A stretch of DNA of 42,023 bases from a bacterium (GTDB taxonomy: Bacteria; Cyanobacteriota; Vampirovibrionia; Gastranaerophilales; Gastranaerophilaceae). Position numbers and translations under genes: made by a program. Each line of letters starts with the position of its first letter. Positions within the stretch are counted from its first letter, which is position 1. A model generated the notes under the pieces. It saw only the letters and a list, made by a program, of their open reading frames with translations, was not told the origin of the DNA and did not search any database. The stretch is taken from positions 1 to 42,023 of the forward strand of contig JAAVBM010000098.1 of the NCBI GenBank assembly GCA_014803505.1. Reading direction: 5' to 3'. Of the stretch, positions 9,770-35,364 are shown piece by piece.

Positions 9770-10740
9770 TGGAAACTCTCAAATATGTATTAAAACGAAT
9801 AATTCAAACAATACCTTTACTTATAATGGTGTCATTAATAAGCTTTTTTATAATTAGGTTATCACCTGTTGATCCTCTTGCAGAATTGAAATTAAATCCT
9901 TCAATTTCTCCTGAAACTGTGCAAAAAGAACGTCAGAGACTTGGTTTAGATAAACCGATTATTGTTCAATATGGTAAATGGGCATTTTCATTCATCCAAG
10001 GTGATTTAGGGGTGACATCAACAGGAGAACAAGTTAGCCAAAAGTTGAAAGAACGTATTCCAAATACTCTTTTATTAACATCAATTGTAATATTTTTAAC
10101 TTGGCTTGTCGGTGTTCCTTTAGGAATAATTGCAGCTGTCAGGTGGAAAACCAATTTTGATAGGATACTTACGGTTTTAACAAGTATTGGTATGGCTATT
10201 CCTTCATTTTTCTTTGCGATATTGTTGTTAATGTTTGCTGTTAAAACGGGATGGTTTCCAATTGGAGGTTTAACCAGTCCGAATTTTGCCGATATGAGTT
10301 TTGGTGGAAAATTTATAGATATTGCTTACCATCTTGTTTTGCCTGTGTTTGTTTTATTTACAATTTCGCTTGCCGGTTTACAAAGACAAATGCGTGCAAA
10401 TATGTTGGATGTGCTTGATAGTGATTATGTTAAATTTGCCAGAGCGAAAGGGCTTTCGGAATTTACTGTTATATATAAGCATGCATTGCGAAATGCAATA
10501 AATCCGATGATAACTCTTCTTGGATTTGAATTTGCCGGATTATTATCAGGTGCAGCTTTGACTGAATATGTTTTTCAATATCCGGGACTTGGTCGATTGA
10601 TTCTGGAAGCTGTTTTAAAGTCTGATATTAACTTAGTTATGGCATCTTTGATGATGGGGGCTGTTATGTTAATTTTAGGTAATTTAATTGCGGATATTCT
10701 GCTTATCATTACAGATCCGAGAATAAGGGTGAAATCATGA
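9769..10740 (+). CDS. ABC transporter permease, OppB/DppB family
   Basis: 323 residues with about six membrane helices. An N-terminal KRIIQTIPLLIMVSLISFFI helix is followed by the RLSPVDPLAELKLNP extracellular segment that is standard in OppB/DppB proteins. The EAA-type cytoplasmic loop that docks the ATPase is visible as FARAKGLSEFTVIYKHALRN. The gene overlaps the substrate-binding gene by one base and the second permease by four bases, so the three are translated as a unit. Confidence 0.93.
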   Translation: METLKYVLKRIIQTIPLLIMVSLISFFIIRLSPVDPLAELKLNPSISPETVQKERQRLGLDKPIIVQYGKWAFSFIQGDLGVTSTGEQVSQKLKERIPNTLLLTSIVIFLTWLVGVPLGIIAAVRWKTNFDRILTVLTSIGMAIPSFFFAILLLMFAVKTGWFPIGGLTSPNFADMSFGGKFIDIAYHLVLPVFVLFTISLAGLQRQMRANMLDVLDSDYVKFARAKGLSEFTVIYKHALRNAINPMITLLGFEFAGLLSGAALTEYVFQYPGLGRLILEAVLKSDINLVMASLMMGAVMLILGNLIADILLIITDPRIRVKS

Positions 10741-11804
10741 TAAAAGAAATCTTGCAACAACTATGGAAAGATAAATTTGCGCGTATTGCCCTAATTGTAT
10801 TGGGTGTAATTTATCTTGCGTTATTTTTCGCTGATTTTATAGCTCCTTATACTAAAGATTTTTCGGACAGAACTATGGCATATGTTCCGCCATCTAAAAT
10901 ATTTACAATAACACCTGAAGGTAAATTATCTAAGCCTTACACCTATAACTATATAAGAGAATTCGATAAAAATAATCTCGAAATAAAGTATTCTCTTGAT
11001 CGTTCGCAAAAGCACTATATAAAGTTTTTTGCAAAGGGGCAACCTTATAAATTCTTAGGAATTATACCTATGAAGCGTCATTTAATAACGACGGATTCTG
11101 ATGGCAGATTGTATCTTCTGGGAACAGATATAAATGGTCGTGACGTATTTTCTCGCCTGCTTTTTGGCGGTAGAATTTCTATGACAATCGGATTTTTGGC
11201 ATTATTTGTATTATTCCCAATAGGACTTTTATATGGTGGAATTTCTGGTTATTTCGGCGGCGTAACTGATAATTTGATGATGAGATTTGCCGAAGCAATT
11301 ATGTCAATTCCAAGTTTTTATTTGTTGATTATATTAGCATCAGTTCTGCCTTCCGGCATGACTAGTACTCAGCGATTTATGCTTATAGTTATAATCCTTG
11401 CGTTAATCGGATGGGCAGGTTTTGCCAGAGTTGTTCGAGGAATGGTTTTATCTATAAAAAATCAGGAATATATACAGGCTGCGAAGTCAATTGGTGCTTC
11501 AAAAATGCGTATTATTGTAAAACATATTTTGCCGCAAACAACAAGTTTTGTTATTGTTGCAATGACATTATCCGTGCCATCATATATTTTGTCAGAATCA
11601 GGGTTAAGTTTCTTAGGGTTGGGAATTCAGCAGCCTGATGCAAGTTGGGGAAATATGTTGAAGGAAGCTCAAGAGTTTACGAATATTTTATATAGACCTT
11701 GGTTACTCACTCCCGGATTTTTAATTTTTGTATCAGTTTTGGCATTTAATGTCATAGGTGATACTATAAGAGACATATTAGATCCGAAGTCAAAAGTAAG
11801 ATAG
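10737..11804 (+). CDS. ABC transporter permease, OppC/DppC family, with enlarged first external loop
   Basis: 355 residues, longer than the usual ~300. The N-terminal helix (FARIALIVLGVIYLALFFADFIAPY) is OppC-like. A ~90-residue extracytoplasmic segment follows (to about residue 120), then the conserved GTDINGRDVFSRLLFGGRIS and an EAA loop (AAKSIGASKMRIIVKHILPQ). The end is DPKSKVR. The long external loop accounts for the extra length. No ATP-binding subunits (OppD/OppF) follow. The next gene is mgtC-like, so ATPases must come from elsewhere. Confidence 0.92.
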   Translation: MIKEILQQLWKDKFARIALIVLGVIYLALFFADFIAPYTKDFSDRTMAYVPPSKIFTITPEGKLSKPYTYNYIREFDKNNLEIKYSLDRSQKHYIKFFAKGQPYKFLGIIPMKRHLITTDSDGRLYLLGTDINGRDVFSRLLFGGRISMTIGFLALFVLFPIGLLYGGISGYFGGVTDNLMMRFAEAIMSIPSFYLLIILASVLPSGMTSTQRFMLIVIILALIGWAGFARVVRGMVLSIKNQEYIQAAKSIGASKMRIIVKHILPQTTSFVIVAMTLSVPSYILSESGLSFLGLGIQQPDASWGNMLKEAQEFTNILYRPWLLTPGFLIFVSVLAFNVIGDTIRDILDPKSKVR

Positions 11805-11823
11805 ATAGAAGAAAGAGGAAATA

Positions 11824-12543
11824 ATGGAAGGCTTAATTAATATAGAATTTTTCATAAGAATAGCGGTAGCCGTGGTATTTGGATTTAGTATCGGTTTAGA
11901 ACGCGAGCTTACAAATAAATACGCAGGTTTAAGAACTCATATTTTAGTATGTTTAGGTGCTTGTGTTTTTACACTTATATCAATATACGGATTTCCGACT
12001 TTTGCTCCCGGCGATAATGTAATTATTGATCAGGCAACAGGTATAAGAGATACTTCTCGTGTTGCTGCTCAAATTGTAACTGGTATCGGTTTTATTGGTG
12101 CCGGTACAGTTTTAAGAAACGGACCGATTGTTTTAGGTTTAACAACTGCGGCGACTCTTTGGATTGCTGCAAGTATTGGTATGGCATGTGGTGCAGGGAT
12201 GTTTGATATCGCATTTTCAGGAACAGTGCTTTCTATTTTAACTTTGGTTATGGTTAGAGTATTTGAAAGAAAAGTTCTTCCTACAAGTACAAAAAGATCT
12301 ACCAGAGTAAAAGTTTCTGTTGTTTGTCAAAATGAATATGCGGATAAAATTCAAGATTATATTATTGATACTTATCAAAATATTTCTCAACTATCAAGAA
12401 AACAACTAAATGTTGATGTTACGAGTACTAAAATTTCTTGTATAATTGATGTTATGACCATTAAACCAATTAAGGATTTGTATAAATCTTTCCAAACTCA
12501 AGAAGGGATTGATTCTATATCAATTCAAGAATTTTTGGAGTAA
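11824..12543 (+). CDS. MgtC/SapB family membrane protein
   Basis: 239 residues. The N-terminal ~145 residues hold about four to five membrane helices with the MgtC signature GLERELTNKYAGLRTHILV and GIGFIGAGTVLRNG. The C-terminal ~80 residues form a soluble, ACT-like domain. MgtC proteins are linked to growth at low Mg2+ and in some species restrain the F-type ATP synthase. Whether this one does either is unknown. It begins 19 bases after the permease gene behind a GAAAGAGG box and may be co-transcribed with it. Confidence 0.9.
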   Translation: MEGLINIEFFIRIAVAVVFGFSIGLERELTNKYAGLRTHILVCLGACVFTLISIYGFPTFAPGDNVIIDQATGIRDTSRVAAQIVTGIGFIGAGTVLRNGPIVLGLTTAATLWIAASIGMACGAGMFDIAFSGTVLSILTLVMVRVFERKVLPTSTKRSTRVKVSVVCQNEYADKIQDYIIDTYQNISQLSRKQLNVDVTSTKISCIIDVMTIKPIKDLYKSFQTQEGIDSISIQEFLE

Positions 12544-12556
12544 TCTTATAATAATC

Positions 12557-12585
12557 TTTACTTTATTTCGTATTTAAGATAGGAT
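12557..12585 (+). promoter_or_regulatory. Candidate promoter for the pyrH operon
   Basis: TTTACT (12557-12562) and TAGGAT (12580-12585) are 17 bases apart. Each matches the sigma70 consensus at four of six positions. The pair lies in the 79-base gap between the mgtC-like gene and pyrH. Confidence 0.4.
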
Positions 12586-12622
12586 GAAACAAAAGAATTT
12601 ATTTGATAGGGAGACTTAGAAA

Positions 12623-13333
12623 TTGAAATATAAAAGAATTTTATTAAAGATTAGCGGTGAAGCTTTGATGGGTAATCAACAGTTTGGGATTGATCAAGAT
12701 CCTGTGAAAATGATTGCCGGTGAAATCAAAAAAGTTTCTGAATTAGGTGCTGAAGTGGCTGTTGTAGTTGGTGGCGGAAACATCTTCAGAGGTATGAAAA
12801 ATAGTGCAAAACTGGGGATGGACCAAGCTTCCGGTGATTATGTAGGTATGCTTGCTACTGTAATGAATGCTATTGCTCTTCAGAGTGCACTAACTCAAAT
12901 CGGAATGCAATGTCGTGTTCAATCTGCAATAACAATGAACCAAATTGCGGAACCATATATTCGTCATAGAGCAATCCGTCATTTAGAAAAAGGCAGAGTT
13001 GTTATTTTTGCAGCCGGAACAGGTAATCCGTTCTTCACAACTGATACAGCTGCAGCTTTGAGAGCTTCGGAAATCAACGCAGAAGCTATGCTTATGGCTA
13101 AAAATGGTGTTGACGGGGTTTATACAGATGATCCTAATACTAATCCTGATGCTAAAAAGTTAGAAAAAATAACTTATGATGATATTATTATCAATGGTTT
13201 AAAAGTTATGGATACTTCTGCTTGCGCATTGTGTAAGCAAAATAATATTCCAATTGTTGTTTTCGACTTTAAAAAAGAAGACGGTATTAAAGATATTCTT
13301 AGCGGTAAAGAAATCGGAACTTATATAAATTAG
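12623..13333 (+). CDS. pyrH: Uridylate kinase (UMP kinase) PyrH
   Basis: 236 residues. It phosphorylates UMP to UDP with ATP, the bacterial hexameric amino-acid-kinase-fold enzyme. Motifs: [14 protein letters not shown] (phosphate-binding Lys), [28 protein letters not shown] (UMP site) and [11 protein letters not shown]. The start is a TTG, supported by an AGGGAG box at 12608-12613, 9 bases upstream, and by alignment of the N-terminus to the family start. frr follows at 26 bases. Confidence 0.97.
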
Positions 13334-13359
13334 TGAAATATATACGAAAGAGGTAAAAA

Positions 13360-13926
13360 ATGTCAGAATCTTTAGATGAATTATTTTTATTCGGTGAAGA
13401 AAAAATGGAAAAAGCAATTGCACAATTGCAAAAAGAATTTGGAACAATCCGTTCAGGTCGTGCAAATCCTGGTATTTTAGACAAAGTAATGGTTGAATAT
13501 TATGGTGCACCAACTCCATTGCGCCAAATGTCTCAAGTTTCAGTTCAAGATGGAACTACTCTTGTTATTACACCTTATGATAAAACTATTATGAAGGAAA
13601 TCGAAAAAGCAATTATTAAAGCTGAAATTGGCATTACACCTAACAGTGACGGCACTTGTATCAGATTGCCTTTCCCTCCTCTAACTGAAGATAGAAGACG
13701 TGAAATTTCAAAAGATGTTAAAAAACTTGGCGAAGATGCTAAAGTTGCTGTTAGAAATATTCGTCGTGATATGACCGATTCTTTGAAAAAACTTGAAAAA
13801 AGTGAAAATCTTCCTGAAGATTTAGTAAAAGATAATCAGGATAAAATTCAAAAATTAACAGATAAATACACTGCAAATATTGATAGTGCAGTATCAGTTA
13901 AAGAAAAAGAGGTTATGACAGTATAA
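13360..13926 (+). CDS. frr: Ribosome recycling factor
   Basis: 188 residues. With EF-G it splits post-termination ribosomes. The N-terminal EEKMEKAIAQLQKEFGTIRSGRANP and the Arg-rich helix near the C-terminus (VAVRNIRRDMTDSLKKLEKS) are diagnostic. An AGAGG box precedes the ATG. Its TAA overlaps the cdsA ATG (TAATG), so the two are translationally coupled. The pyrH-frr-cdsA order is common in bacteria. Confidence 0.97.
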   Translation: MSESLDELFLFGEEKMEKAIAQLQKEFGTIRSGRANPGILDKVMVEYYGAPTPLRQMSQVSVQDGTTLVITPYDKTIMKEIEKAIIKAEIGITPNSDGTCIRLPFPPLTEDRRREISKDVKKLGEDAKVAVRNIRRDMTDSLKKLEKSENLPEDLVKDNQDKIQKLTDKYTANIDSAVSVKEKEVMTV

Positions 13927-14795
13927 TGATTGATTTAGGCTTGAATAAAAATGCAACAAGAATGCTTACCGGTTTAATAATGGGAACCATTGTTTTAAGC
14001 TGTATTATCGTTGGCGGTTATGCATTACTTGCGCTTTTAATAGTAATGTTAATTGCCAGTTCTCGAGAATATGTGAAAATGTTAAATCACAAAGGTTTTT
14101 ATCCAAGCCTTAAAGTCATTTATTTGACAGAAGCAATTCTTGCTACTGTTGTGTATTTCAAAAGGTTTGATTTAGTTGCAATAACTCTTACAATTTGTGC
14201 AATGGGTTCTTTTATGTGGGTGTTGTTCAAAGGTAGACAGCCATATATTGCGAATGTTGCAACAACATTGTTGGGTATGGTTTATTGCGGGTGGTTCCCG
14301 CTTCACTTGATTTTCTTAAGAGATTTATCTTGTGATAAATTCGATAGTGGCTTGGGGTTTGTTGTTCTAATGTTTGTCGCTATAATTCTAACTGATATCG
14401 GTTGTTATTATGTTGGCTCAAAATGGGGTAAACATAAGTTAGCTCCGGTTATCAGTCCAAATAAAACAATTGAAGGTTCTATTGGCGGCGCATTCTTCGC
14501 AGTAGCAGGTGCTATTATTATTGGTTTATATTTAGGTGTTGAATGGTATCTTGCATTGTTTGCAGGTCTGATTTGTACCTCATTTGCGCAAATAGGTGAT
14601 TTATCAGAATCATTAATCAAACGAGATGCAGGTGTTAAAGATTCTGGAACTAGTTTACCTGGACATGGCGGATTTTTGGATAGAACGGATAGTTTTATTT
14701 TAACTATTCCTATTATGTACTATTTCTGTAAATGTTTTATATTCCAAACCGAATGGATGGATACTCTTAGCGGAATGTTGAAAGGATTATTCTAG
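13926..14795 (+). CDS. cdsA: Phosphatidate cytidylyltransferase (CDP-diglyceride synthase)
   Basis: 289 residues, polytopic membrane protein. It makes CDP-diacylglycerol from phosphatidic acid and CTP at the inner membrane. The CdsA signature is clear in the last third: SPNKTIEGSIGGAFFA, then SLIKRDAGVKDSGTSLPGHG and GGFLDRTDS with the Asp residues that bind metal. In many genomes dxr or rseP follows cdsA. Here rnc follows one base after the stop. Confidence 0.95.
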   Translation: MIDLGLNKNATRMLTGLIMGTIVLSCIIVGGYALLALLIVMLIASSREYVKMLNHKGFYPSLKVIYLTEAILATVVYFKRFDLVAITLTICAMGSFMWVLFKGRQPYIANVATTLLGMVYCGWFPLHLIFLRDLSCDKFDSGLGFVVLMFVAIILTDIGCYYVGSKWGKHKLAPVISPNKTIEGSIGGAFFAVAGAIIIGLYLGVEWYLALFAGLICTSFAQIGDLSESLIKRDAGVKDSGTSLPGHGGFLDRTDSFILTIPIMYYFCKCFIFQTEWMDTLSGMLKGLF

Positions 14796-14796
14796 A

Positions 14797-15480
14797 ATGA
14801 AATCTGTAACTGAGATTTTTGGTATAGAGACTTTTCAAGATGAACTTTATCAGCGTGCTTTAACTCACTCATCTTATACAAAAGAAAAAGAGTTGTCTCA
14901 TACTGAATGTTATGAAAGACTTGAGTTTCTTGGTGACGCAGTATTAAAATTAACAATTTCCGATGTTCTTTTCAAAATGTTTCCGGATTCACCGGAAGGT
15001 GAGTTGTCTAAGATTCGTAGTATTATTGTTTCAGATAATACATTGGCTGATATTGCGAAAAAGAACGGTTTACAAAATCTGATTGTAATGAGTCGCCATG
15101 AAGAAAAACAAGGTTGTAGAGAATTGAATTCTATATGTGCTTGTGTTTTTGAAGCTATTTTGGGTGCATATTATCTTGATGGACAGTTTGATGCTATTTT
15201 AAAATATATTGAAGAGACTTTTAAACCGTATATAAAAGATGTACAAGAACATTTTGCTAAATTTAATGCCAAAGCTGTATTGCAAGAATATACTCAAGGA
15301 TTAACAAAAAATACACCTGTATATACAGTAATAAATGAAATTGGACCACAGCATAAAAAAGAATTTGAAGTTGAAGTTAGATATAATGATGAAGTTTTAG
15401 CTGTTGAAAAAGGTTTGAGTAAAAAAGAAGCAGAGCAGAAGTGTGCATATTCTGCTTGTAAAAAGTTAGGAATTATATAA
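14797..15480 (+). CDS. rnc: Ribonuclease III
   Basis: 227 residues. It cleaves double-stranded RNA during rRNA and mRNA processing. The catalytic ERLEFLGDAVLKL motif is intact, and the second acidic cluster follows in FEAILGAYYLDGQF. The C-terminal ~70 residues form a double-stranded RNA-binding domain (AKAVLQEYTQG...SKKEAEQKCAYSACKKL). It lies between cdsA and rpe with essentially no gap. A potential substrate in this window is the long perfect hairpin after gltX. Confidence 0.96.
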   Translation: MKSVTEIFGIETFQDELYQRALTHSSYTKEKELSHTECYERLEFLGDAVLKLTISDVLFKMFPDSPEGELSKIRSIIVSDNTLADIAKKNGLQNLIVMSRHEEKQGCRELNSICACVFEAILGAYYLDGQFDAILKYIEETFKPYIKDVQEHFAKFNAKAVLQEYTQGLTKNTPVYTVINEIGPQHKKEFEVEVRYNDEVLAVEKGLSKKEAEQKCAYSACKKLGII

Positions 15481-16128
15481 ATGACAAAGGTTATTGTTTC
15501 TCCTTCAATATTATCAGCTGATTTTGCGAATTTAGAAAGAGATATTAAACTAGTTGAAAGTAATGGTGCGGATTGGATACATGTTGATGTTATGGATGGC
15601 CATTTTGTTCCTAACATTACAATCGGAATTCCCGTTGTTAAGTCTATAAGAAAAGTTACTCTATTGCCGTTGGATGTACATTTGATGATTGAAAATCCTC
15701 AAAAATATATTGAAGATTTTGCAAAGGCTGGTGCTGATATTTTAACAATACACTTTGAAGCTGTAAAAAAAGAGGATTTACGATCTGTAATTGAACATAT
15801 AAGATCTTTGGGTGTAAAAGCTGGTTTATCTATAAAACCAAAAACGAATCCTCAAGAAATTCTTGAGTTTTTACCGATGCTTGATTTGGTTTTGGTAATG
15901 ACTGTTGAACCCGGATTTGGTGGTCAGAAATTTATGCCGGATTGTGCGGAGAAAATTAAGATAATTAAATCTAATTCTGAATCTGAGTTGATTATACAAG
16001 TTGATGGTGGAATAAATGATGAAACTGCAAAAATTTGTATTGAAAATGGTGCAACATCTCTAGTTGCGGGGAATTATATTTATAAAGCTGATGATGTTAA
16101 AAACGCTATCGAATCACTTAAGTTGTAG
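15481..16128 (+). CDS. rpe: Ribulose-phosphate 3-epimerase
   Basis: 215 residues, a TIM barrel that interconverts ribulose-5-P and xylulose-5-P in the pentose phosphate pathway. Motifs in order: SPSILSADFANLERDI, WIHVDVMDGHFVPNITIG (metal-binding Asp/His), PLDVHLMIENP, MTVEPGFGGQKF and IIQVDGGIN. The ATG directly follows the rnc stop with no spacer, so translation is probably coupled. The gene ends exactly where the convergent neighbour's stop codon begins. Confidence 0.97.
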   Translation: MTKVIVSPSILSADFANLERDIKLVESNGADWIHVDVMDGHFVPNITIGIPVVKSIRKVTLLPLDVHLMIENPQKYIEDFAKAGADILTIHFEAVKKEDLRSVIEHIRSLGVKAGLSIKPKTNPQEILEFLPMLDLVLVMTVEPGFGGQKFMPDCAEKIKIIKSNSESELIIQVDGGINDETAKICIENGATSLVAGNYIYKADDVKNAIESLKL

Positions 16129-17181
16129 TTAATTTTCAGTATTTTCACCTTTGCGTATTTTATATTTTAGTATTTCCTCCATATTGCTGTTCGCAAAAAT
16201 TTCTTGTTGAGATTTAGTTTTTTCACCAGATAATTCTTCATTTTTATTATCTTCTTTGTTTTCACTAGGTGACAATTCTCCAACTCCAGTTTTTGCCAAA
16301 ATTTCAATCTGTTTTTTTGAAACTGTAGATAAGTTTTCTTTATTTTTACTATTAACTTCTTGGGCTATATTTTGAAGGGAATCTCCTTTATCCTGTGCAT
16401 TTTCACCGGATTTAATTATTTGTTTACCCATACGCAGATATTCACCATACAGACCAATCCAACTTTTAACTTTTTCACCCATTTCTACTGTAACATTACC
16501 ATAGTCAATAGTTTCAGTGCCTATTCCAAAATGTTCTTCAAGTATTGGAGTATATTCATTTAAATCAGTATCTGTTTGTGCTGCAAGCTTTTGACCATTT
16601 ACTCCTAATTGTTTCAGTTGGCGTTGGAGTTTTTGGATTTTCATACCATTAGTTAGATTCTTTTCTTTAGTAGAATTTTTTAAAGATTCAATTTGAGATT
16701 TAATATCGCTTGCTTCTGATAATAATTCAGTTATTGCGGTTTCAAAATTTTCGGTTTTATTATCAGATTTATCTCCCAGATTATTAGATTCTACTTCTGA
16801 ATTTTCTGATAGGGATGCTCTATTTTTGCTTTCTTCAGAAAATGTTTTTGCAACCTTTAAATAACTTTTACCAGATTCTAGCATTTGATTTTTTACTTCT
16901 GAGGCAGATAATTTTTGTGGTTCTTCGGTATTTTCTTCTTCTTCTTCAGAGATATTTACATCTTGTTGATAGGGTAAATTTGAGCCTGATGCAATTGCAG
17001 TTTCGTATGTAGTATCGTCTTTGTCTCCTGAGTTTAAGTCATTTTGAAACTCTTTTGCCCATTGCAAATATTGTGTTGGTACTTCAACACCTTGAGTTTC
17101 ATATTTAATTATTTCTTTAGCTGTTAATTTCCGCCAATCAATTTGTTTTGGAGAAACCGCTGTTATTCTTGATACGTCCAT
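16129..17181 (-). CDS. Hypothetical acidic, low-complexity helical protein
   Basis: 350 residues, not recognised. The N-terminus (MDVSRITAVSPKQIDWRKLT) has no signal peptide. Residues ~50-150 are acidic and Ser/Glu/Asn-rich (including a run of Glu near residue 80). Residues ~150-215 form a probable coiled coil (TELLSEASDIKSQIESLKNS and KLQRQLKQLG). A more structured part follows (EEHFGIGTETIDYGNVTVEM, then KVKSWIGLYGEYLRMGKQII). The Lys/Glu-rich tail is likely disordered. There are no membrane helices and no cysteine. It is convergent with rpe, with no base between the two stop codons. Confidence 0.75.
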   Translation of the reverse strand: MDVSRITAVSPKQIDWRKLTAKEIIKYETQGVEVPTQYLQWAKEFQNDLNSGDKDDTTYETAIASGSNLPYQQDVNISEEEEENTEEPQKLSASEVKNQMLESGKSYLKVAKTFSEESKNRASLSENSEVESNNLGDKSDNKTENFETAITELLSEASDIKSQIESLKNSTKEKNLTNGMKIQKLQRQLKQLGVNGQKLAAQTDTDLNEYTPILEEHFGIGTETIDYGNVTVEMGEKVKSWIGLYGEYLRMGKQIIKSGENAQDKGDSLQNIAQEVNSKNKENLSTVSKKQIEILAKTGVGELSPSENKEDNKNEELSGEKTKSQQEIFANSNMEEILKYKIRKGENTEN

Positions 17182-21333: not shown

Positions 21334-21546
21334 CTATCCTTTATAAACTTCTGTTATTGCTAAATCCGGACATCTGGTTGCACACATTGCACAACCCAAG
21401 CATTCTTTATTCGGATCGCAAAATTCAACTACCTTGTTTCCAAGATTGTTAGTTTTATTACTAATTTTTATTAAATTCTTAGGACATTCCTTTACGCATA
21501 AATAACACGCCTTACACTTATCACTATCAATAACTATGTTACTCAT
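21334..21546 (-). CDS. 2-oxoacid oxidoreductase delta subunit, 2[4Fe-4S] ferredoxin
   Basis: 70 residues with two four-cysteine clusters: Cys11, 14, 17, 21 (CKACYLCVKECP) and Cys49, 52, 55, 59 (CLGCAMCATRCP). It passes electrons from the TPP site to ferredoxin. First gene of the operon, preceded by a GAGGGAA site and a dyad symmetric element at 21576-21601. The alpha subunit starts 4 bases after its stop. Confidence 0.94.
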   Translation of the reverse strand: MSNIVIDSDKCKACYLCVKECPKNLIKISNKTNNLGNKVVEFCDPNKECLGCAMCATRCPDLAITEVYKG

Positions 21547-21657: not shown

Positions 21658-21686
21658 TTTACTAAAAATCTTAAGCCTGCTAAAAT
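21658..21686 (+). promoter_or_regulatory. Candidate promoter for the giant coiled-coil gene
   Basis: TTTACT (21658-21663) and TAAAAT (21681-21686) with a 17-base spacer lie 38 bases before the ATG. An AAGGACTAGGAA ribosome site follows. Confidence 0.5.
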
Positions 21687-21723: not shown

Positions 21724-24700
21724 ATGGCTCAAGATATAGAAAAGATTATTGATTTACTTAAGGAGATAAAACGAGCTGATAATACAAATACTGAGAGCTT
21801 TGAGAGATTATTGGTTAATATTGGCAGAAAATTAGAATCAATGGAAAACAATGTTGCTTCTAATGAGTTGTTAAAGGCTTATTTATCAGAAATAACTAAA
21901 AATATGGAAGATAAATATACTACCACATTAAGTAAGTTTTCAGAAATTGAAAATGCTTTGAAATCAATATATAAAGAGCAAGATGAGCATGTAAAAACTA
22001 AAAGCATGCAAGAATTGTATGAAGTCTTCTCTAAAAATATGAATAATTTCTATACCGAAGCTAAGCAGCAAAAAGCTTTAATTACGGCTATTGAAGCTCG
22101 CTTATCCGGCATGAATACTAACAAATCTGATAAAGAAGATATTCTTAGAACTATTACTCTGTTAAGAAAAGATTTTGAAAATCTTAACCATGCCTACAAA
22201 CATACTATTGATGATGTTAATACAAACTTAAAATCTATCCTTAAAAATCTTATCAATTCTGATAATTCAAAACTTACTACATCTATGAGTGCTCAAATTG
22301 AGATTTTATCAAAAGCAACAAATGATGTTATAGGATATTTAAAATCCATAGATGAAAAAAATATAACTATGGAAAAGTTGCTGGAAAATGTTGCAACTAA
22401 TGAGAATCTAAAAATTACACAGGGTATTATTGATTCTATTCAACAGAAAACAGATAGAATTTCTACATTTATAGATAAAGTTGCAGATAAATCTGATATT
22501 GAATCTCTACAAAAAACTGCACTTATTATGAATCAGAAAATTGATGAAACTGCGGCTAAAGAAGATTTTTCAAGAATTTCATTGAAAACCGAAAGTTTGA
22601 TAATTGAGATTAATGAAATTAAAAAAACGCTTGCCAGAGTTACTCAAAATATAGAAAATCTTCCTGATACTAAATATCTGGAAGAATCAGTTCAAGCTTT
22701 GTATAAAAAGTTTGATAATTTGGCTGATGATATTGAAACTACAAGCTTTAAAGGTGATTTGTACGGATTTGATAGTAAGATAGCTATTTTAAAAGAAGAA
22801 CTTTATATTATTAAAAATATAATTACAGATCTTAATGATGTAGTTATGTCGAAAATTATATCAAGTATTAATGATATTTCTTTTAAATCAGAAAGTAATG
22901 ATATCAAAAACCATATTACAGAACTTATTGTAAAACTACCTCAACAAGAAGATATTGAAAGAATATTGCTTGAAGGAAATGACAATTCTCATTTGTTAAA
23001 TGATTTGATAGCAAGAACTGATATTCTTGCAGATAAGTTGGATGCTTTACCGTCTCATAATGATATGGCAGAATTAAGCAGCAATCAATTAGGTCTTGTT
23101 GAAAATCTTCAATTTGTAGCTAATAAAGATGATGTTGAAAATATCCTTGGTAAAGCTGATGAAATTGAGGCTATGATTGATAATCTTAATTTCGATAAAG
23201 AGTTTGAAAATATTTATGATAAAGCTTCAACTATTGAAGATTGGCTTAAAGATTCTAATATTAAAGAACATTCTGTAAATATTTCAGAACAACTTCCAAG
23301 AAAAGCTGAACAAAAAGATTTGCTTGAAATTCTTGAAGTAACTAAAAAAATTACAGGTGCAATAGAAGAATTATCACAGAATACTGATGTTAAAAAAGTA
23401 AATCATACTGTTTCTGATGTTTATACAATGTTAGATGAACTTAAAGTAGATTTAATGAACAGTCAAGAAATGCACAATGATACTTTGTTAATTCAGTTGC
23501 AAGAATTGCAAAAAGCGCTTTCCGGTATTGTTTCTGGCGATGAGTTTAATAATTTTATTGATGATTTGAAACATTTTTCAAATAATATTCTTGAAAGCTT
23601 TGCAAAAATATCAGATCAAAACCAACAAAATCTTACTCTTCAACAAAAAGTAATTGATAAAATCAATACTTTGGATATTGATGAGAAAATAGATTCTTCG
23701 TTTAATAAATTAGATAATGTTAATACTCAATTGACTAATATTTCAACGTTTATAGACAATAAAATGGATATAAATAACGAAGATATTAGAAAAAATATAT
23801 CTGATATTCGTGAAATTATTGAGAATAAAAAATCTAATTTTATGGATTTGGAACAAATTATTTCATCAACTATTTTAAAAGTAGAGAAATATCTTTCAGA
23901 TATCAAAACGACTATTCTTAAAAATTCAAGTGGTGAATCTGCAGAAAGTTTGAATTCAAAACTTGTAGCTGTAGAAAAAGAGTTAGTTGAATATAAACAA
24001 AATAATGAAAATCAATTTGCTAAACTTATTGACAAATTAGATGCGTATGAACAATTATCTGAAAATATAACTTTACCTATTGAAAGTCTATCTGTGTCAA
24101 TTTCTGAGCTTACAGAATTAAAAGAACAAGTACAACAATTGACTGATTCTTTTAAAGCTGACGGAGAAAATCCAATACCTGCATTTGTTGCAGATAAGTT
24201 TTCAGAATTGGAATCTGATTTACAAACATTAGCTGATAACGTTGAAAATGGACTTGAAAAAGGCTTTGCTTATAGTGCTGAATTGGTAGAAGAAAAAACA
24301 TCTGTTTTACTTGATTTAATAAAAGAACTAAGGCATAAAAGTACTGATAATATTGATTTATATGAAAAACTTACAGTTACAGATAATAAATTGATTGATT
24401 TGAAACAAGAGTTGGAACTAATCAATACCGATGTTATCAATAATTTAAATTCAAAAACCGAAGAAATGTTAAAAGGTTTAGAACCAATTAGAGATATGTT
24501 GGAATCTCTAAGTAATTCTACTCCTAATAATTCATCTTGCGAAAATATTAAAGAACAGCTTGAAACCTTGATGGAAGCAATAAGAACAGACTTCTATGAT
24601 ACAAGCCAATATTCAAAGGATACATTAGAAAAGCTTGAAAATACTTATAACAGGCTTAGTGAAAATATTATTGCATCTGAAAATAATTTGAAAGATTTTA

Positions 24701-27700
24701 TTCTTGGCGATATTGATTCTGTGATCTTTAAAGTCGATGATATGAAATCATACCTTGAAGAATCTATGAATAGAATTATTCCTCCTGATGTTTCAGGCAT
24801 GGAAGAGTTTCATAATTTTGTAGCTGAAATTACTCAATTTAAAGAAGAACAAAAAGCTTATTTATCAGATGCTGTAGAAGAAATCAAAACTTCTATTGAA
24901 CAAAGATTAGATTTTCATCAGGATGAATTGAAATCTTTAATTGCTGTTGCTACAAATAATGAAGAAATTATTCAAGCTATTGAAGATTTGAAATATGCAT
25001 TCAGAACTAGGGTAGCAGATATCAGTTTCTTGGAAGAAACTGATGCTTTTGATGAATTTAATTCAAGTAACCATTATGAACAAGCTTTTGAAGTAAGTCA
25101 AAATGAAGAATTTATTCAAAATATTAAAGGTGATTTTGAAAAATTCGCAGAGTTACTAAAGGGATTAACTGGTAAAAATTCTGAAATTGAACAAGTTTTA
25201 AATACTATAAGAACAAAACTTGATACCATTACTGTTATGAAATCTGAAATATCAGAAGAAGATCTTGCAAAAGGTTTAGAAGAAGAAGACGTTATTATTG
25301 GTGAAAATAATTTTGACTTTATAAAAGCATTTGATCTTTTAAAAGATGATATATCAAATTTGAGAACTGTAATAGAAGATACACTTTTAATTGATGTTTC
25401 TCAAAACAAAAATATTATCAAGGATAGTGATAATTTTGATAATAAACTGTTAGAAGAGTTAAATTATAAGTTAGATGATTTAACGTATACTTTAAACAAA
25501 GATTGGTTAGAAGATATCAAGAATTATCTTGGCGGTAATGATATTCAAACAATATTAGAAGATATTAACGACAAGATTAATTTACTTACACTAACAGATA
25601 ATTCCGATCTTATCAACGAACTAAAAGAATCTATTCAAAATATTAGCCTATTGAGCAGTATTGATACAGAATCCGGTAATGAAATCTGTTCTATGCTTAA
25701 ATTAATAAGTGAAAAGATTGATATTTTGGCTTCTGATATAGATTATGAACTTATTGAAGATGTTAAAGAAACACTAGAAAAAGCATATGAAACTAAAACT
25801 GAGCATGATGAAGAAATTAAAGCAATGCTATCAACTCTTGATCAAAAGGTTGATATTATTGCATCTTCCGACAATATAGATTTTATTTCAGATGTTAGAG
25901 AAACTCTTGAACAAGCTTACGAAACTAAAGCTGAACAGAATGCAGAAATTAAAGATATGCTATCAACTCTTGACCAAAAAATTGATCTTCTTTCGTCAAC
26001 TGATAGTGCAGATTTGATTTTAGATGTTAAAGAAACTCTAGAAAAAGCCTACGAAACAAAAACTGAGCAAAATGCAGAAATTAAAGATATGCTATCAACT
26101 CTTGGTCAAAAAGTTGATATTATTGCTACATCTGATAGTTCAGATTTGATTTTAGATGTTAAGGAAACTCTAGAAAAAGCATATGAAACAAAAACTGAGC
26201 AAAATACAGAAATTAAAGATATACTATCAACTCTCGAACAAAAAATTGATATTATTGCATCTTCTGATAATTTTGATTTGATTTCGGATGTTAAAGATAT
26301 TCTAGAAAAAATCTATGAAAATAGTAATGCAAATAATTCAGATAATACTGTTGATATTCAACATATGCTTCAAAGTTTAGACCAAAAAGTTGATATTATT
26401 GCCGATACAGATAATTTTGAGTTGGTTTCTGAAGTTAGAGAAACTATTGAAAACTTATACAAGCAACATCAACCATTAGAACAAACTTTAGAAATCACCA
26501 GAATGTTGGATGTTCTTAGTGATAAAGTTGATATATTAGCCTCAAATGATAGTTATGACTTGCTTTCTGAAGTGAAAGATACTGTAGAAAAAGTATATGA
26601 AGAAAGTCGCGAAAATAAAATATCAAAAGATCAAGCTGAAATAAAAAATTTATTGACAATTTTAGATCAGAAAATAGATATTATTGCGTCAACAGATACC
26701 TCTGAAGGTGTTAATGAATTAAAAGATGCAATAGTTGACATTGATGAAAAAATTGACAATTTTTCTTTAAAACCGGTAGAAGAATCCGTTCAAAAGCTTT
26801 CCGAATCTGATGCGAAAATTACGAATATGTTGGAAGCTCTTAATCATAGAATTGATATAATGACGGAGCAAGAGCATTCTGATGCTAAGAGAGGATTAGA
26901 AGATGTTAAACATTTAATTCTTGCTCAGATGAAATATATTGAAAAACTTGATAAAAATGGTAAAACTGAAGCTTTCAAAAAATGTCTTAATGAATTAACT
27001 TTAGAAGTTAATAATTTAAATCTTAATTCGAATATTAATAGAAAAGATATAAATAGATCTCTTAAAGATATGAAAGAATCTATTATGTCAGCAGTTGTGA
27101 CTATTTTTGAACAGGTTTCTTTTGTTGAAGAATCTGAAGACATTAAAGATTTTGTAGAAGAAAAGACTGATGTTATTAATCAAAATCTTGAAGCTGTAAC
27201 AAGACAACTTCGTCAAATAACAAATTCAACTGATGATGAATATACATATTCTATGCAGGATATTGAATCAGATCTTGCAAAATTAAGAATGGCATTAAAC
27301 GAGTTACAAAATAATGAGCTTGGCAACCAATCTAATGAACTTGCAAATATTTCAGGCAATATTTATAGAATAACATCTAAAGTTGATGAATTGCAAAATT
27401 ATCTTACTCAAGATGAAATAAAAGATATTCGTGATGAAGTCTCTGTTTTAAGAGAACAAACTGATAAAATTTTAATTTCATCAGGAGAGTCTTATAATGC
27501 GTTAAATAATGGTTTAGAAGATTTTAGTAAAATTATAACTAATTATTTAGCTAATAAAGTTGACAGAATTACTCAATTATTGGAAAGATCTTCAACTTCT
27601 GATAAAGTGATGCGTCAAGCTTTGATTTATATGGGTGAATGGATAGATTCAACTAGTGAAAGTATGAATAAAATATCAACTAACTCGGATGAAATAATTG

Positions 27701-28020
27701 ATATTAAATCAGCTATTGAGTCTTTAAAATTAACGATTCCGGAACAGAAAGATATTTTAAATTCAATTGAAGAAAAGTTTGATGAACAACAAGAAAGATT
27801 AAGTTTCTTTGAAAAACATATAACTAAACTTGGAGCTTTAGAAGAAAAATTTGAACAACAGCAAGAACGAATTGATAGACTTGAAATGACAATTGAAAAA
27901 GTTCTGTCTGCTGTTGAAGATATTGATGATTCTAAAATCACAAGAAAAATCGATAAAATAGATAAACAAATAGCAAAATTAAGTATAAATATAGAAAAAT
28001 TAGCATCATATGTTGACTAG
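21724..28020 (+). CDS. Giant (2098-residue) cytoplasmic-type coiled-coil repeat protein
   Basis: Function unknown. Almost the whole length is predicted helical from its Leu/Ile spacing and high Glu, Asp, Lys, Asn and Ser content. There is no signal peptide, no membrane segment, no LPXTG-like or autotransporter end, and only a few Cys. Recurrent motifs of the type DKIDxLASxDxxDLIxDVKETLEKAYE run through the protein. At residues ~1326-1501 four copies of a 44-residue unit sit in exact register. The C-terminus (KIDKIDKQIAKLSINIEKLA) is again a coiled coil. A cytoskeletal, scaffold or spacer filament role is inference. It has its own promoter-like element and overlaps the glcD-like gene by 11 bases. 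Confidence 0.88.
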   Translation: MAQDIEKIIDLLKEIKRADNTNTESFERLLVNIGRKLESMENNVASNELLKAYLSEITKNMEDKYTTTLSKFSEIENALKSIYKEQDEHVKTKSMQELYEVFSKNMNNFYTEAKQQKALITAIEARLSGMNTNKSDKEDILRTITLLRKDFENLNHAYKHTIDDVNTNLKSILKNLINSDNSKLTTSMSAQIEILSKATNDVIGYLKSIDEKNITMEKLLENVATNENLKITQGIIDSIQQKTDRISTFIDKVADKSDIESLQKTALIMNQKIDETAAKEDFSRISLKTESLIIEINEIKKTLARVTQNIENLPDTKYLEESVQALYKKFDNLADDIETTSFKGDLYGFDSKIAILKEELYIIKNIITDLNDVVMSKIISSINDISFKSESNDIKNHITELIVKLPQQEDIERILLEGNDNSHLLNDLIARTDILADKLDALPSHNDMAELSSNQLGLVENLQFVANKDDVENILGKADEIEAMIDNLNFDKEFENIYDKASTIEDWLKDSNIKEHSVNISEQLPRKAEQKDLLEILEVTKKITGAIEELSQNTDVKKVNHTVSDVYTMLDELKVDLMNSQEMHNDTLLIQLQELQKALSGIVSGDEFNNFIDDLKHFSNNILESFAKISDQNQQNLTLQQKVIDKINTLDIDEKIDSSFNKLDNVNTQLTNISTFIDNKMDINNEDIRKNISDIREIIENKKSNFMDLEQIISSTILKVEKYLSDIKTTILKNSSGESAESLNSKLVAVEKELVEYKQNNENQFAKLIDKLDAYEQLSENITLPIESLSVSISELTELKEQVQQLTDSFKADGENPIPAFVADKFSELESDLQTLADNVENGLEKGFAYSAELVEEKTSVLLDLIKELRHKSTDNIDLYEKLTVTDNKLIDLKQELELINTDVINNLNSKTEEMLKGLEPIRDMLESLSNSTPNNSSCENIKEQLETLMEAIRTDFYDTSQYSKDTLEKLENTYNRLSENIIASENNLKDFILGDIDSVIFKVDDMKSYLEESMNRIIPPDVSGMEEFHNFVAEITQFKEEQKAYLSDAVEEIKTSIEQRLDFHQDELKSLIAVATNNEEIIQAIEDLKYAFRTRVADISFLEETDAFDEFNSSNHYEQAFEVSQNEEFIQNIKGDFEKFAELLKGLTGKNSEIEQVLNTIRTKLDTITVMKSEISEEDLAKGLEEEDVIIGENNFDFIKAFDLLKDDISNLRTVIEDTLLIDVSQNKNIIKDSDNFDNKLLEELNYKLDDLTYTLNKDWLEDIKNYLGGNDIQTILEDINDKINLLTLTDNSDLINELKESIQNISLLSSIDTESGNEICSMLKLISEKIDILASDIDYELIEDVKETLEKAYETKTEHDEEIKAMLSTLDQKVDIIASSDNIDFISDVRETLEQAYETKAEQNAEIKDMLSTLDQKIDLLSSTDSADLILDVKETLEKAYETKTEQNAEIKDMLSTLGQKVDIIATSDSSDLILDVKETLEKAYETKTEQNTEIKDILSTLEQKIDIIASSDNFDLISDVKDILEKIYENSNANNSDNTVDIQHMLQSLDQKVDIIADTDNFELVSEVRETIENLYKQHQPLEQTLEITRMLDVLSDKVDILASNDSYDLLSEVKDTVEKVYEESRENKISKDQAEIKNLLTILDQKIDIIASTDTSEGVNELKDAIVDIDEKIDNFSLKPVEESVQKLSESDAKITNMLEALNHRIDIMTEQEHSDAKRGLEDVKHLILAQMKYIEKLDKNGKTEAFKKCLNELTLEVNNLNLNSNINRKDINRSLKDMKESIMSAVVTIFEQVSFVEESEDIKDFVEEKTDVINQNLEAVTRQLRQITNSTDDEYTYSMQDIESDLAKLRMALNELQNNELGNQSNELANISGNIYRITSKVDELQNYLTQDEIKDIRDEVSVLREQTDKILISSGESYNALNNGLEDFSKIITNYLANKVDRITQLLERSSTSDKVMRQALIYMGEWIDSTSESMNKISTNSDEIIDIKSAIESLKLTIPEQKDILNSIEEKFDEQQERLSFFEKHITKLGALEEKFEQQQERIDRLEMTIEKVLSAVEDIDDSKITRKIDKIDKQIAKLSINIEKLASYVD
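25699..26226 (+). repeat. Four in-register 132-bp coding repeats
   Basis: Units begin at 25699, 25831, 25963 and 26095, each exactly 132 bases (44 codons). They encode the core (K/R)-(V/I)-DI-(I/L)-A-x-S-D...DV(K/R)ETLE(K/Q)AYETK. The three later units are close at nucleotide level, including the shared ATGCTATCAACTCT. Diverged copies with insertions extend from about 25558 to 26840. 44 is four times 11, compatible with hendecad coiled-coil geometry. Confidence 0.85.
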
Positions 28021-29395
28021 TAATTTAATAAAAGAATTAAATAAAGCATTACCCAGTGAAAATATCTTATCGGAAATAGAGGAAAGATACGTATATTCTG
28101 TTGATGCTTCTAACGATCCGTATACTAAATCAACATTAGCGGATGCTGTTGTCTTTGTCGAATCAATTGAGCAAGTGCAAAAAGTTGTTTCAATTGCTAA
28201 TAAACAAATGACTCCAATAATCTGCAGGGGTGCCGGGACTAATACTGTAGGTGCTTGTGTTCCTACTCATGGCGGAATTATTCTTAATTTTTCAAAGATG
28301 AATAAAATTTTGGAAATTAACTCTAATAATATGACAGCTAGAGTTCAACCAGGTGTAATTGTTGGAGATTTACAAAATGAAGTTGAAAAATTGGGTTTAT
28401 TTTATCCTCCGGATCCATCTAATTTAAAAGTTTCAACTATAGGTGGCAGTATTGCTCAAAATTCAGCAGGAGCAAGATGTTTTAAGTACGGAGCCACAAA
28501 AGATTATGTTCTGGATATGCTCGTTGTAACAGCTAATGGTGAACTTATAAGAACAGGTTCAAATACTATAAAAAACGCTACAGGATATAATCTTGGAAGT
28601 ATATTTATTGGTTCTGAAGGAACTTTGGGTATTGTGGTTGAAGCTACTATTAAACTGATTCCAAAACCAGAAAGTACTCAAGTAATAATGGCATATTTTA
28701 ATACTGTTGAGGATTCTGTGTCTACAGTAAACAAAATTATCGAGGAGCAAGTATTTCCAACAACATTAGATTTCATGGATAAAAACGCTATTCAAACTAT
28801 TGAAAAATTTTATCCTACAGGTCTGTTGTGTGATAAAGAAGCTGCATTAATTATTGAAATTGATGGCTATCAGGTAAGCCTTCCTACATTGAGAGAAAAA
28901 ATCTGTGATATTTTGCGTAAAAATAATGCTGTAAATATACAATATTCGACAAATAAAATTGAATCGGATAATATATGGCGGGCAAGACGTTCATCTATGG
29001 CTTCTTGTACTAAAGTGAAACCAAATGTAACAACTGATGATATAATTGTTCCTAGAAGTAATCTTGCGAAATTGGTAAAAGGAATTCAGGATATTTGTAA
29101 ACGACATAATCTTACTGTTTGTATGGTTGGTCATGTCGGAGATGGTAGTGTGCATCCGCAGATTCCTATTGATTATAACGATAAAAACGAATATAAACAT
29201 TATAAGATAGCTAAATCAGAAATTTATCAGCTTACAGTAAAATTGGGTGGAACTATTTCTGGGGAACATGGTATTGGCTTAGAGAAAAAGGCTTATATTG
29301 CAAAAGTTGTTGATGGTGGAGCTTTAGATTATATGCGTCAAATAAAAAAAATATTTGATCCTAAAAATATATTGAACCCATATAAAATTTTCTAA
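28010..29395 (+). CDS. glcD: FAD-binding oxidase, glycolate oxidase GlcD / D-lactate dehydrogenase family
   Basis: 461 residues. FAD_binding_4 domain: ADAVVFVESIEQVQKVVSIA, ICRGAGTNTVGACVP, YPPDPSNLKVSTIGGSIAQN and GATKDYVLDMLVVTA. The C-terminal oxidase domain has GHVGDGSVHPQIPI and SGEHGIGLEKK, the His/Glu-containing active-site region. It likely oxidises a 2-hydroxy acid such as D-lactate or glycolate, with electrons passed to an unknown acceptor. No GlcE or iron-sulfur GlcF partner is nearby. Its ATG lies 11 bases inside the preceding giant gene and there is no separate promoter, so the two are probably expressed together. Confidence 0.92.
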   Translation: MLTSNLIKELNKALPSENILSEIEERYVYSVDASNDPYTKSTLADAVVFVESIEQVQKVVSIANKQMTPIICRGAGTNTVGACVPTHGGIILNFSKMNKILEINSNNMTARVQPGVIVGDLQNEVEKLGLFYPPDPSNLKVSTIGGSIAQNSAGARCFKYGATKDYVLDMLVVTANGELIRTGSNTIKNATGYNLGSIFIGSEGTLGIVVEATIKLIPKPESTQVIMAYFNTVEDSVSTVNKIIEEQVFPTTLDFMDKNAIQTIEKFYPTGLLCDKEAALIIEIDGYQVSLPTLREKICDILRKNNAVNIQYSTNKIESDNIWRARRSSMASCTKVKPNVTTDDIIVPRSNLAKLVKGIQDICKRHNLTVCMVGHVGDGSVHPQIPIDYNDKNEYKHYKIAKSEIYQLTVKLGGTISGEHGIGLEKKAYIAKVVDGGALDYMRQIKKIFDPKNILNPYKIF

Positions 29396-33872: not shown

Positions 33873-34418
33873 TTATCTTGATATTGTTTTACTCATGTTT
33901 TCTATCTTATTGCTTATACTTGTATCTATTACATAGTCGTCAAATTTAAATGTAAGTCCCGCAATAAGGTTCTCGTCAACTCGCCAACAAGGCATAATTT
34001 CGCAATTTAACTTATGTTCTAACTTAAATAAAATATTTGTTTTTGCTTCAAAATTTAAATTTATTGCTGAAACAATTTCTACTTTCTTTTTGTTAGATTT
34101 TTTATCTAAAATGTCTGTGTATGCATAATATATGGCATTTAGTTCTTTAAATCGGTGTTTTTCAATAAGTAATTTTAGGAAATTCAACACTTTTTTATCA
34201 ATTTTGTTACTAAAAATAGAGTCTAGAATTTCTAATTTTTTGCTTATGGATATAGATGAATTTTCAAGTACCACATTCAAATCTTCTGATGAATTTAGAA
34301 CATTTAAAATTTCTTCCAATTGTATTTTGAATCTTTCTTCAGAGCTGTTTTCTGAAGCGATATCCATAAGTGCTTGAGCATAAATTTTTGAAATTGTAGA
34401 AATTTTATTATCTGCCAT
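33873..34418 (-). CDS. atpH: ATP synthase F1 delta subunit
   Basis: 181 residues, delta/OSCP family, which ties the peripheral stalk (b and b') to the top of F1. The N-terminal [20 protein letters not shown] is characteristic. The C-terminal part ([20 protein letters not shown]...[18 protein letters not shown]) contains the usual GGxxxxxxDxxxDxS-like ending. Overlaps atpF by one base. Confidence 0.93.
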
Positions 34419-34927
34419 TATAATTTTACCTTATCAAGTTCATCTAAACTTTCTTCTATAAACTTTCCATGTAATTCAGGGTTTGAAGTCAATAATTGTT
34501 TCATTTGTTCTTTAGCCATTTCAACAGAAGCAACAATTGTTTTCCCTGTTAGTAAGTTTGATATTTTTTTTTCTTCAATAGAAATAGCTCTGTCGATATT
34601 ATTTTTAATACCTTCGATATTTTTTTTAGTTGATTCTTCTATTTTTTCTTTAAAAATTTGAGCTTTAGATTGAGCTTCTTTTTCTAAATTATCGATGTCT
34701 TGTGGAAGTCTTTCTAACTGGAGCTGAGATGTAGCTAAAACTTTTTCGGAATTTTCTTTTTCATCATCAGATTTTTTTATAGATGATTCAACTGTAGATA
34801 TAGAATTATCCAGAGATGATTTCAAATTCAATTTGACAACTATAAATCCCAAAATAATCAACATGATAATAAAGTTGATTGTATTTGAGTTTGCCAAATA
34901 TTTTATAAAAGAAATGAATTCTTGCAT
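34418..34927 (-). CDS. atpF: ATP synthase Fo b subunit
   Basis: 169 residues. An N-terminal membrane helix (TINFIIMLIILGFIVVKLNL) is followed by a long charged coiled coil (KSDDEKENSEKVLATSQLQL...). This is one of two non-identical b-type subunits in the cluster. It is the second in order and next to atpH, as the cyanobacterial b is. The peripheral stalk is therefore probably a b/b' heterodimer. Confidence 0.9.
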   Translation of the reverse strand: MQEFISFIKYLANSNTINFIIMLIILGFIVVKLNLKSSLDNSISTVESSIKKSDDEKENSEKVLATSQLQLERLPQDIDNLEKEAQSKAQIFKEKIEESTKKNIEGIKNNIDRAISIEEKKISNLLTGKTIVASVEMAKEQMKQLLTSNPELHGKFIEESLDELDKVKL

Positions 34928-34938
34928 AATTTATACCT

Positions 34939-35364
34939 TTACTGTTTTCCTAAAAGTTTAGAAACTATTACTTGAGATAAATCCTTGACTATGCTGTTTT
35001 TAAGTGTATCTTCAAGTGTTTTTTCATCTTGAGCTAATGATTCTTTTTTTGTTTGAAGTTCAACTTTTGATTCTTCTCTAGCATTATGAGTTTTTTCATT
35101 TGCAATAACGTTAGCTTCTTCGATTGTATTTCGAATATTTGCTCTGCATTCAGCCTGAGTTTCTTTTAATGCATTCTCTCTTTTTGAATCGAATTCTTGA
35201 GCTTTATCAATACAATTTTTTGCATGATCATAATTTGATGCAATATATTCTTCTCTTTTTCTGATAATATTTAGAATCGGATTATAGAATATAGCATTCA
35301 TGATCATAATGAATACAACAAAACTCAAAATTGCGATTAAAAAAGTAGCATTAAATTCAACCAT
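34939..35364 (-). CDS. atpF': ATP synthase Fo b' subunit
   Basis: 141 residues. The N-terminal membrane helix (FNATFLIAILSFVVFIMIMN) leads into IFYNPILNIIRKREEYIASN, the family-typical membrane exit sequence, and then a coiled coil. The length, and the position between c and b, match the cyanobacterial b' gene (atpG in cyanobacterial nomenclature). Starts 9 bases after atpE. Confidence 0.9.
   Translation of the reverse strand: MVEFNATFLIAILSFVVFIMIMNAIFYNPILNIIRKREEYIASNYDHAKNCIDKAQEFDSKRENALKETQAECRANIRNTIEEANVIANEKTHNAREESKVELQTKKESLAQDEKTLEDTLKNSIVKDLSQVIVSKLLGKQ

Follow-up and report, generated by a model that had tools for sequence, protein, structure and literature searches.

A family of giant coiled-coil proteins, predicted to be cytoplasmic and most likely structural, in the Gastranaerophilales

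The described proteins closest in kind to the one analysed here, the product of a giant open reading frame (ORF) from Gastranaerophilales, are HMW2 and GPR. HMW2, the attachment-organelle ruler of Mycoplasma pneumoniae, is a giant cytoplasmic coiled coil of 1,818 amino acids (aa) with 11 coiled-coil domains; its rod has been altered by adding or deleting coiled-coil segments, and the length of the cytoskeletal core followed that of the engineered protein at 0.15 nm per residue (PMC8191905). GPR of the Rhizobiales is lineage-specific, about 2,100 aa long and nearly all helix (PMC8262873). The coiled-coil-rich proteins Slr7083, All4981 and Syc2039, from cyanobacteria and thus from the same phylum as our protein, are candidate filament formers by coil content, where at least 80 residues in coiled-coil conformation is the criterion; they measure ~280-650 aa (PMC7002697). 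Crescentin and the intermediate filament (IF)-like bacterial proteins also have a long, cytoplasmic coiled-coil rod (PMC10873595).

The giant ORF occupies positions 21724..28020 (+) of contig JAAVBM010000098.1 (assembly GCA_014803505.1), a stretch of 42,023 nucleotides (nt) that we call the window. The host genome is a Candidatus Gastranaerophilales (Melainabacteria) metagenome-assembled genome (MAG) of 2.26 Mb in 128 contigs, in which the full-length protein finds one match as a query. The ORF runs without an internal stop from an ATG, with AAGGA directly 5' of it, to a TAG, and its 2098 codons encode a 240 kDa protein of pI 4.4 that is rich in I, L, E, D, K, N and S and has 14 prolines and 3 cysteines. 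It is the largest gene in the window, as had been noted earlier from the sequence: the next ORF encodes 677 aa.

Coiled-coil character and anatomy of the protein

The coiled-coil signal of the giant protein exceeds chance. Hydrophobic power at a period of 3.6-3.67 residues is 3.5, compared with 1.0 in shuffled sequences (200 shuffles, maximum 1.7), and a home-made heptad score marks 57% of its residues, compared with 8% in shuffled copies and 0-6% in six globular neighbour proteins. The score is strict: two ATP-synthase b-type subunits served as positive controls, and one reached 18% while the other was missed (0). AlphaFold2 models built from family alignments are helical over 84% of residues 1-1195 and 92% of residues 1670-2098, at modest confidence (predicted local distance difference test (pLDDT) 67.4 and predicted template modelling score (pTM) 0.34 for the first region; 70.7 and 0.28 for the second). 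Periodicity, heptad score and modelled helix all agree with the earlier note's description of a coiled-coil protein, and the heptad (57%) and helix (84-92%) fractions amount to the long coiled-coil stretches by which large bacterial coiled-coil-rich proteins are recognised.

The same description had the protein cytoplasmic and outside known families, which our searches support. It has no signal peptide or transmembrane (TM) segment, its highest 19-residue Kyte-Doolittle mean being 1.03. None of 67 family members has a membrane-helix segment either: their highest 19-residue mean is 1.38, compared with 2.45-2.56 in two membrane proteins of the window. We infer a cytoplasmic location. The claim that no enzymatic domain is recognisable also holds, as every Pfam match of the giant protein lies below the gathering score and no NCBIfam match passes its cut-off. 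PHROGs returned a single unnamed family (E 0.005) and no named match, and PDB sequences gave no match to the protein alone; the family profile retrieved only assorted coiled coils from PDB (E 6e-4 to 0.1), and Foldseek searches with both models, against PDB and against viral structures, found nothing at E 0.001. Crescentin and the IF-like filament proteins, which are much shorter than the giant protein, yielded no convincing homologue in the PDB sequence or fold searches. A tape measure, a surface fibre and a hidden secretion signal, any of which would have spoken against the earlier description, were looked for in Pfam, PHROGs, NCBIfam, viral contigs and viral folds and in the signal-peptide and TM check of the 67 members, and none was found.

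Some Pfam candidates were set aside. The match of residues 1318-1400 to a methyltransferase family (PF08242, E 1e-4) is below the gathering score, falls mostly on tandem repeat and was taken as chance. Scattered matches of single members to coil families (Baculo_PEP_C, NPV_P10, BLOC1_2 and Laminin_II) have no one family in common, and those of the window protein are sub-threshold.

An alignment of 30 members from the same genus divides the protein into conserved ends and a variable middle, in which column conservation is approximate. The N-terminal region (residues 1-620; 21724..23583, +) is helical and occupied in 74-100% of genus orthologues, with residues 1-400 occupied in 91-100% at 32-53% identity and residues 1-125 recognised in several other genera. 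The most conserved central block, residues 851-900 (24274..24423, +), has 59% identity within the genus. Residues 1301-1700 are the most variable, with 3-80% occupancy per 50-residue block. Within them a helical unit of 44-48 residues occurs in seven tandem copies (residues 1327-1640; 25704..26645, +; one example is TLDQKVDIIASSDNIDFISDVRETLEQAYETKAEQNAEIKDMLS); these repeats are absent or different in most orthologues. The extensive internal repetition claimed earlier is therefore clear for residues 1327-1640 only; elsewhere repetition is degenerate. Other orthologues carry tandem repeats with periods of 34, 33, 26, 24 and 22 aa, in or near the site of the window protein's repeats or further upstream. 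The middle thus lengthens repeatedly and independently.

The conserved C-terminal module (residues ~1685-2098; 26776..28017, +) is the part that identifies the family across the order, and identity over residues 1751-2098 is 41-79% among the 30 genus members. Five order-wide motifs mark it. Motif A ([NSQ][IV]SF[VIL]EE.E[DE]I) is QVSFVEESEDIKDFVEEKTD in the window protein (residues 1797-1816; 27112..27171, +). Motif B (Y-x-Y-[ST]-x-x-D-[IV]-E-[ST]-D-x-A-K-[LIM]-R, with core Y-x3-D-x-E-x-D-x2-K) is YTYSMQDIESDLAKLR (residues 1840-1855; 27241..27288, +), in which Y1842, D1846 and D1850 are invariant family-wide and E1848 and K1853 nearly so in the family-wide alignment. Motif C, or RTNKL (D-[IVL]-x-S-[IV]-S-x-R-[TV]-N-K-L-[IL]), is degenerate in the window's own genus. 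Motif D, or GEWID (YLAEWID / YMGEWID), is DKVMRQALIYMGEWIDS (residues 1960-1976; 27601..27651, +) and contains the nearly invariant W1973. Motif E, at the extreme C-terminal end (IEKLxSYVD), reads IEKLASYVD here (27991..28017, +). The motifs persist into other families of the order, where identity is 22-30%. The invariant residues suggest a docking surface, because coil composition alone gives no explanation for them.

The giant ORF is under purifying selection that is strongest at its C-terminus. Over ten orthologue pairs the ratio of nonsynonymous to synonymous substitution rates (dN/dS) was 0.07-0.19 for the whole protein and 0.03-0.11 for the last 410 residues, the C-terminus being lower in every pair (10/10); the values are rough, since most pairs approach saturation at synonymous sites.

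Distribution and length of the family

Of the 35 other genomes searched within the genus, 34 yielded an orthologue. Across the Gastranaerophilales, a profile of the C-terminal ~420 residues built from 44 sequences matched 226 of 241 genomes and 44 of 50 genera, the gene being essentially single-copy. Matches in genera g33, g34 and g38 are the weakest (E about 1e-5 to 1e-12) and less sure. A second profile, built with deep lineages, found both halves of one ~1,000-aa gene in most g33 and g34 genomes tested; the membership of g38 is doubtful. Genome G012, of the same genus, gave no match, and its giant gene probably falls in an assembly gap, because its korA match is missing the first 42 residues, which is what a contig end would produce. 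In G140, korA, glcD and the giant gene are absent together. The ORF is interrupted by a stop or frameshift in loci L044 (where it lies in two pieces, 10001-14743 and 14837-15619) and L057, whether genuinely or through sequencing error.

Outside the order, the C-terminal profile had no match at E 1e-5 in 194 genomes sampled across the phylum, cyanobacteria included. One sister order gave only fragmentary coil matches and the other none, so that order-specific, as we use it of this family, means at the sensitivity of these searches. No relative of the giant protein was found in viral contigs. One contig titled Muribaculaceae bacterium (L040, JAMPCZ010000065.1) bears a Gastranaerophilales kor / giant ORF / glcD locus, and is a mislabelled or chimeric MAG.

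Orthologue length, which had been proposed as a check on the protein, proved to vary widely: complete members run from about 750 to 2870 aa, nearly fourfold. The short ones retain the C-terminal module (L167, 812 aa; L169, 748 aa; L171, 828 aa; L109, 778 aa), and several longer members from other genera retain the N-terminal 125 residues.

Gene neighbourhood

Upstream of the giant ORF lies a divergent 2-oxoacid:ferredoxin oxidoreductase operon (korC, korB, korA), headed by a 70-aa ferredoxin-like ORF with two cysteine-cluster motifs (21334-21546, -). Between korD and the giant ORF there is a weak sigma-70-like promoter match (21658..21686, +), which is at chance level: 1 match was found and 3.1 were expected by chance. 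Downstream, a gene for a GlcD-like FAD-linked oxidase (28010..29395, +) shares its first 11 nt with the end of the giant ORF. Its ATG, at 28010, sits within the Tyr-Val codons of motif E, with no clear Shine-Dalgarno sequence before it. The overlap measures 11 nt at almost every locus of the genus and 11-17 nt in about a dozen other genera, and the junction is common to nearly all loci of the sets L031-L066 and L097-L130; L109 has a 36-nt gap and no overlap. From this arrangement, translation of glcD is likely coupled to that of the 6.3-kb ORF ahead of it.

In deeper lineages the giant gene adjoins instead a gene for uracil-DNA glycosylase, phosphoglucose isomerase, CutA1 or an HExxH-containing protein. 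We therefore dropped glcD as a functional clue or operon partner: with neighbours that change in this way, the giant protein is not tied as a subunit to any single operon, and the coupling is a lineage feature and weak evidence for shared function. These data bear on the proposal that the protein is a scaffold for the GlcD-like oxidase or the adjacent ferredoxin oxidoreductase, co-produced with it by translational coupling. The stop/start overlap speaks for such an enzyme scaffold, but coupling by itself says little about contact between the products, the deeper lineages have the protein without an adjacent glcD, and L109 has a gap in place of the overlap; we consider this improbable.

The wider neighbours in the window (kor, glcD, gltX and the atp operon) are housekeeping genes. 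A ~270-aa family with an HEFxH motif and without a Pfam match follows cutA or glcD in many genera (for example L176:15625-16428 and L097:912-1748). A 350-aa hypothetical protein (window 16129-17181, -) has no family match and stands beside cdd in many genus genomes, at 27-56% identity. The ATP synthase operon encodes two different b-type subunits of 141 and 169 aa (34418-35364, -), as is usual in cyanobacteria.

Possible roles of the giant protein

The giant protein is probably best explained as one of the larger members of an unnamed family of giant coiled-coil proteins, cytoplasmic and order-specific, that most likely serve as a structural scaffold; we infer both its function and its location. 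The chains would pair via their helical rods and lie extended. A straight single rod of 2098 residues at 0.1485 nm each would reach up to about 310 nm, less if it is kinked. Docking or assembly, by binding to a conserved partner, may fall to the C-terminal module and, less markedly, to the N-terminal one, with the middle serving as a spacer whose length is under little sequence constraint. Analogy with HMW2 and GPR makes the filament, ruler or polar-scaffold role suggested in the earlier note plausible.

Some points weigh against a scaffold. The conserved motifs, acidic and aromatic, could just as well belong to the binding site of a non-structural regulator. The AlphaFold2 models are of modest confidence throughout (pLDDT 67-71, pTM 0.28-0.34) and of monomers only, so oligomers are outside what they can show. 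Lengths also vary within the genus, from 1,429 to 2,848 open codons, a spread for which any strict ruler must account.

The alternative that survives best is that the protein is an HMW2-like molecular ruler, or the axial rod of a polar or attachment structure, with rod length setting structure length and species differing in it. Its size, cytoplasmic coiled coil and conserved ends, together with a middle lengthened by tandem duplication, agree with this, and engineered HMW2 shows that such a protein can set length (PMC8191905). However, no attachment organelle is documented for Gastranaerophilales in the literature we found, and the within-genus spread just described again tells against it. 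HMW2 itself comes from another phylum, and the C-terminal module of the giant protein has conserved motifs of its own. We hold this only as a tentative possibility.

An unlikely alternative is a GPR-like organiser of polar growth with lipid-facing, apolipoprotein-like helices. GPR is the nearest protein in size, with 2,115 aa of which 1,700 form continuous helix (PMC8262873), and weak matches to PF01442 occur in 3 of 27 family members (best E 1.6e-06) and in 3 of 44 members of another family set. But GPR carries two TM domains at its N-terminus and is matched by PF01442 along ~75% of its length, whereas TM segments are absent from all 67 giant-family members and the window protein has no PF01442 match up to E 1.

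An SMC-like or nucleoid-organising protein is very unlikely: although residues 1862-2093 match SMC_prok_B (E 6e-06), this match is to coil only and scores 24 bits against a cut-off of 567, and Pfam and NCBIfam searches found no ATPase head domain of the kind that characterises SMC and MukB. A phage tape measure or surface fibre, with which the protein shares only length and coiled coil, can be all but dismissed, as the gene has housekeeping rather than virion neighbours and occurs in almost every genome of the order, and as the named phage families, viral relatives and viral folds of a tape measure are missing from the searches above, along with the signal peptide, membrane anchor and Pfam anchor domain of a fibre or trimeric adhesin.

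Returning to a structural scaffold, our best reading, made by analogy, is that the giant family would resemble HMW2 or GPR in its mode of work and stand outside both as far as tested. It would likewise be distinct from the shorter coiled-coil-rich proteins of cyanobacteria. As a more speculative idea, which we think possible rather than probable, the proteins might form a cytoskeletal element confined to Gastranaerophilales and present in almost all of their genomes. Species would then adjust the dimensions of a cell structure by gaining or losing 22-48-residue helical units between two fixed docking ends.

The giant protein is of a known general kind, and what is new is the family: giant, order-wide, close to single-copy and with a nearly fourfold range of length between conserved ends. 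A near-universal single-copy gene with a motif-bearing C-terminal domain is more informative than the filament, ruler or polar role first suggested. The conserved C-terminal motifs offer an exact handle for a partner search, and the lengths of the orthologues form a natural series on which a ruler could be tested without engineering. The Gastranaerophilales are common, little-cultured, non-photosynthetic gut relatives of cyanobacteria whose cell biology is barely known; a single-copy gene whose middle varies almost fourfold provides a concrete target in them, likely a structure-giving protein of the lineage.

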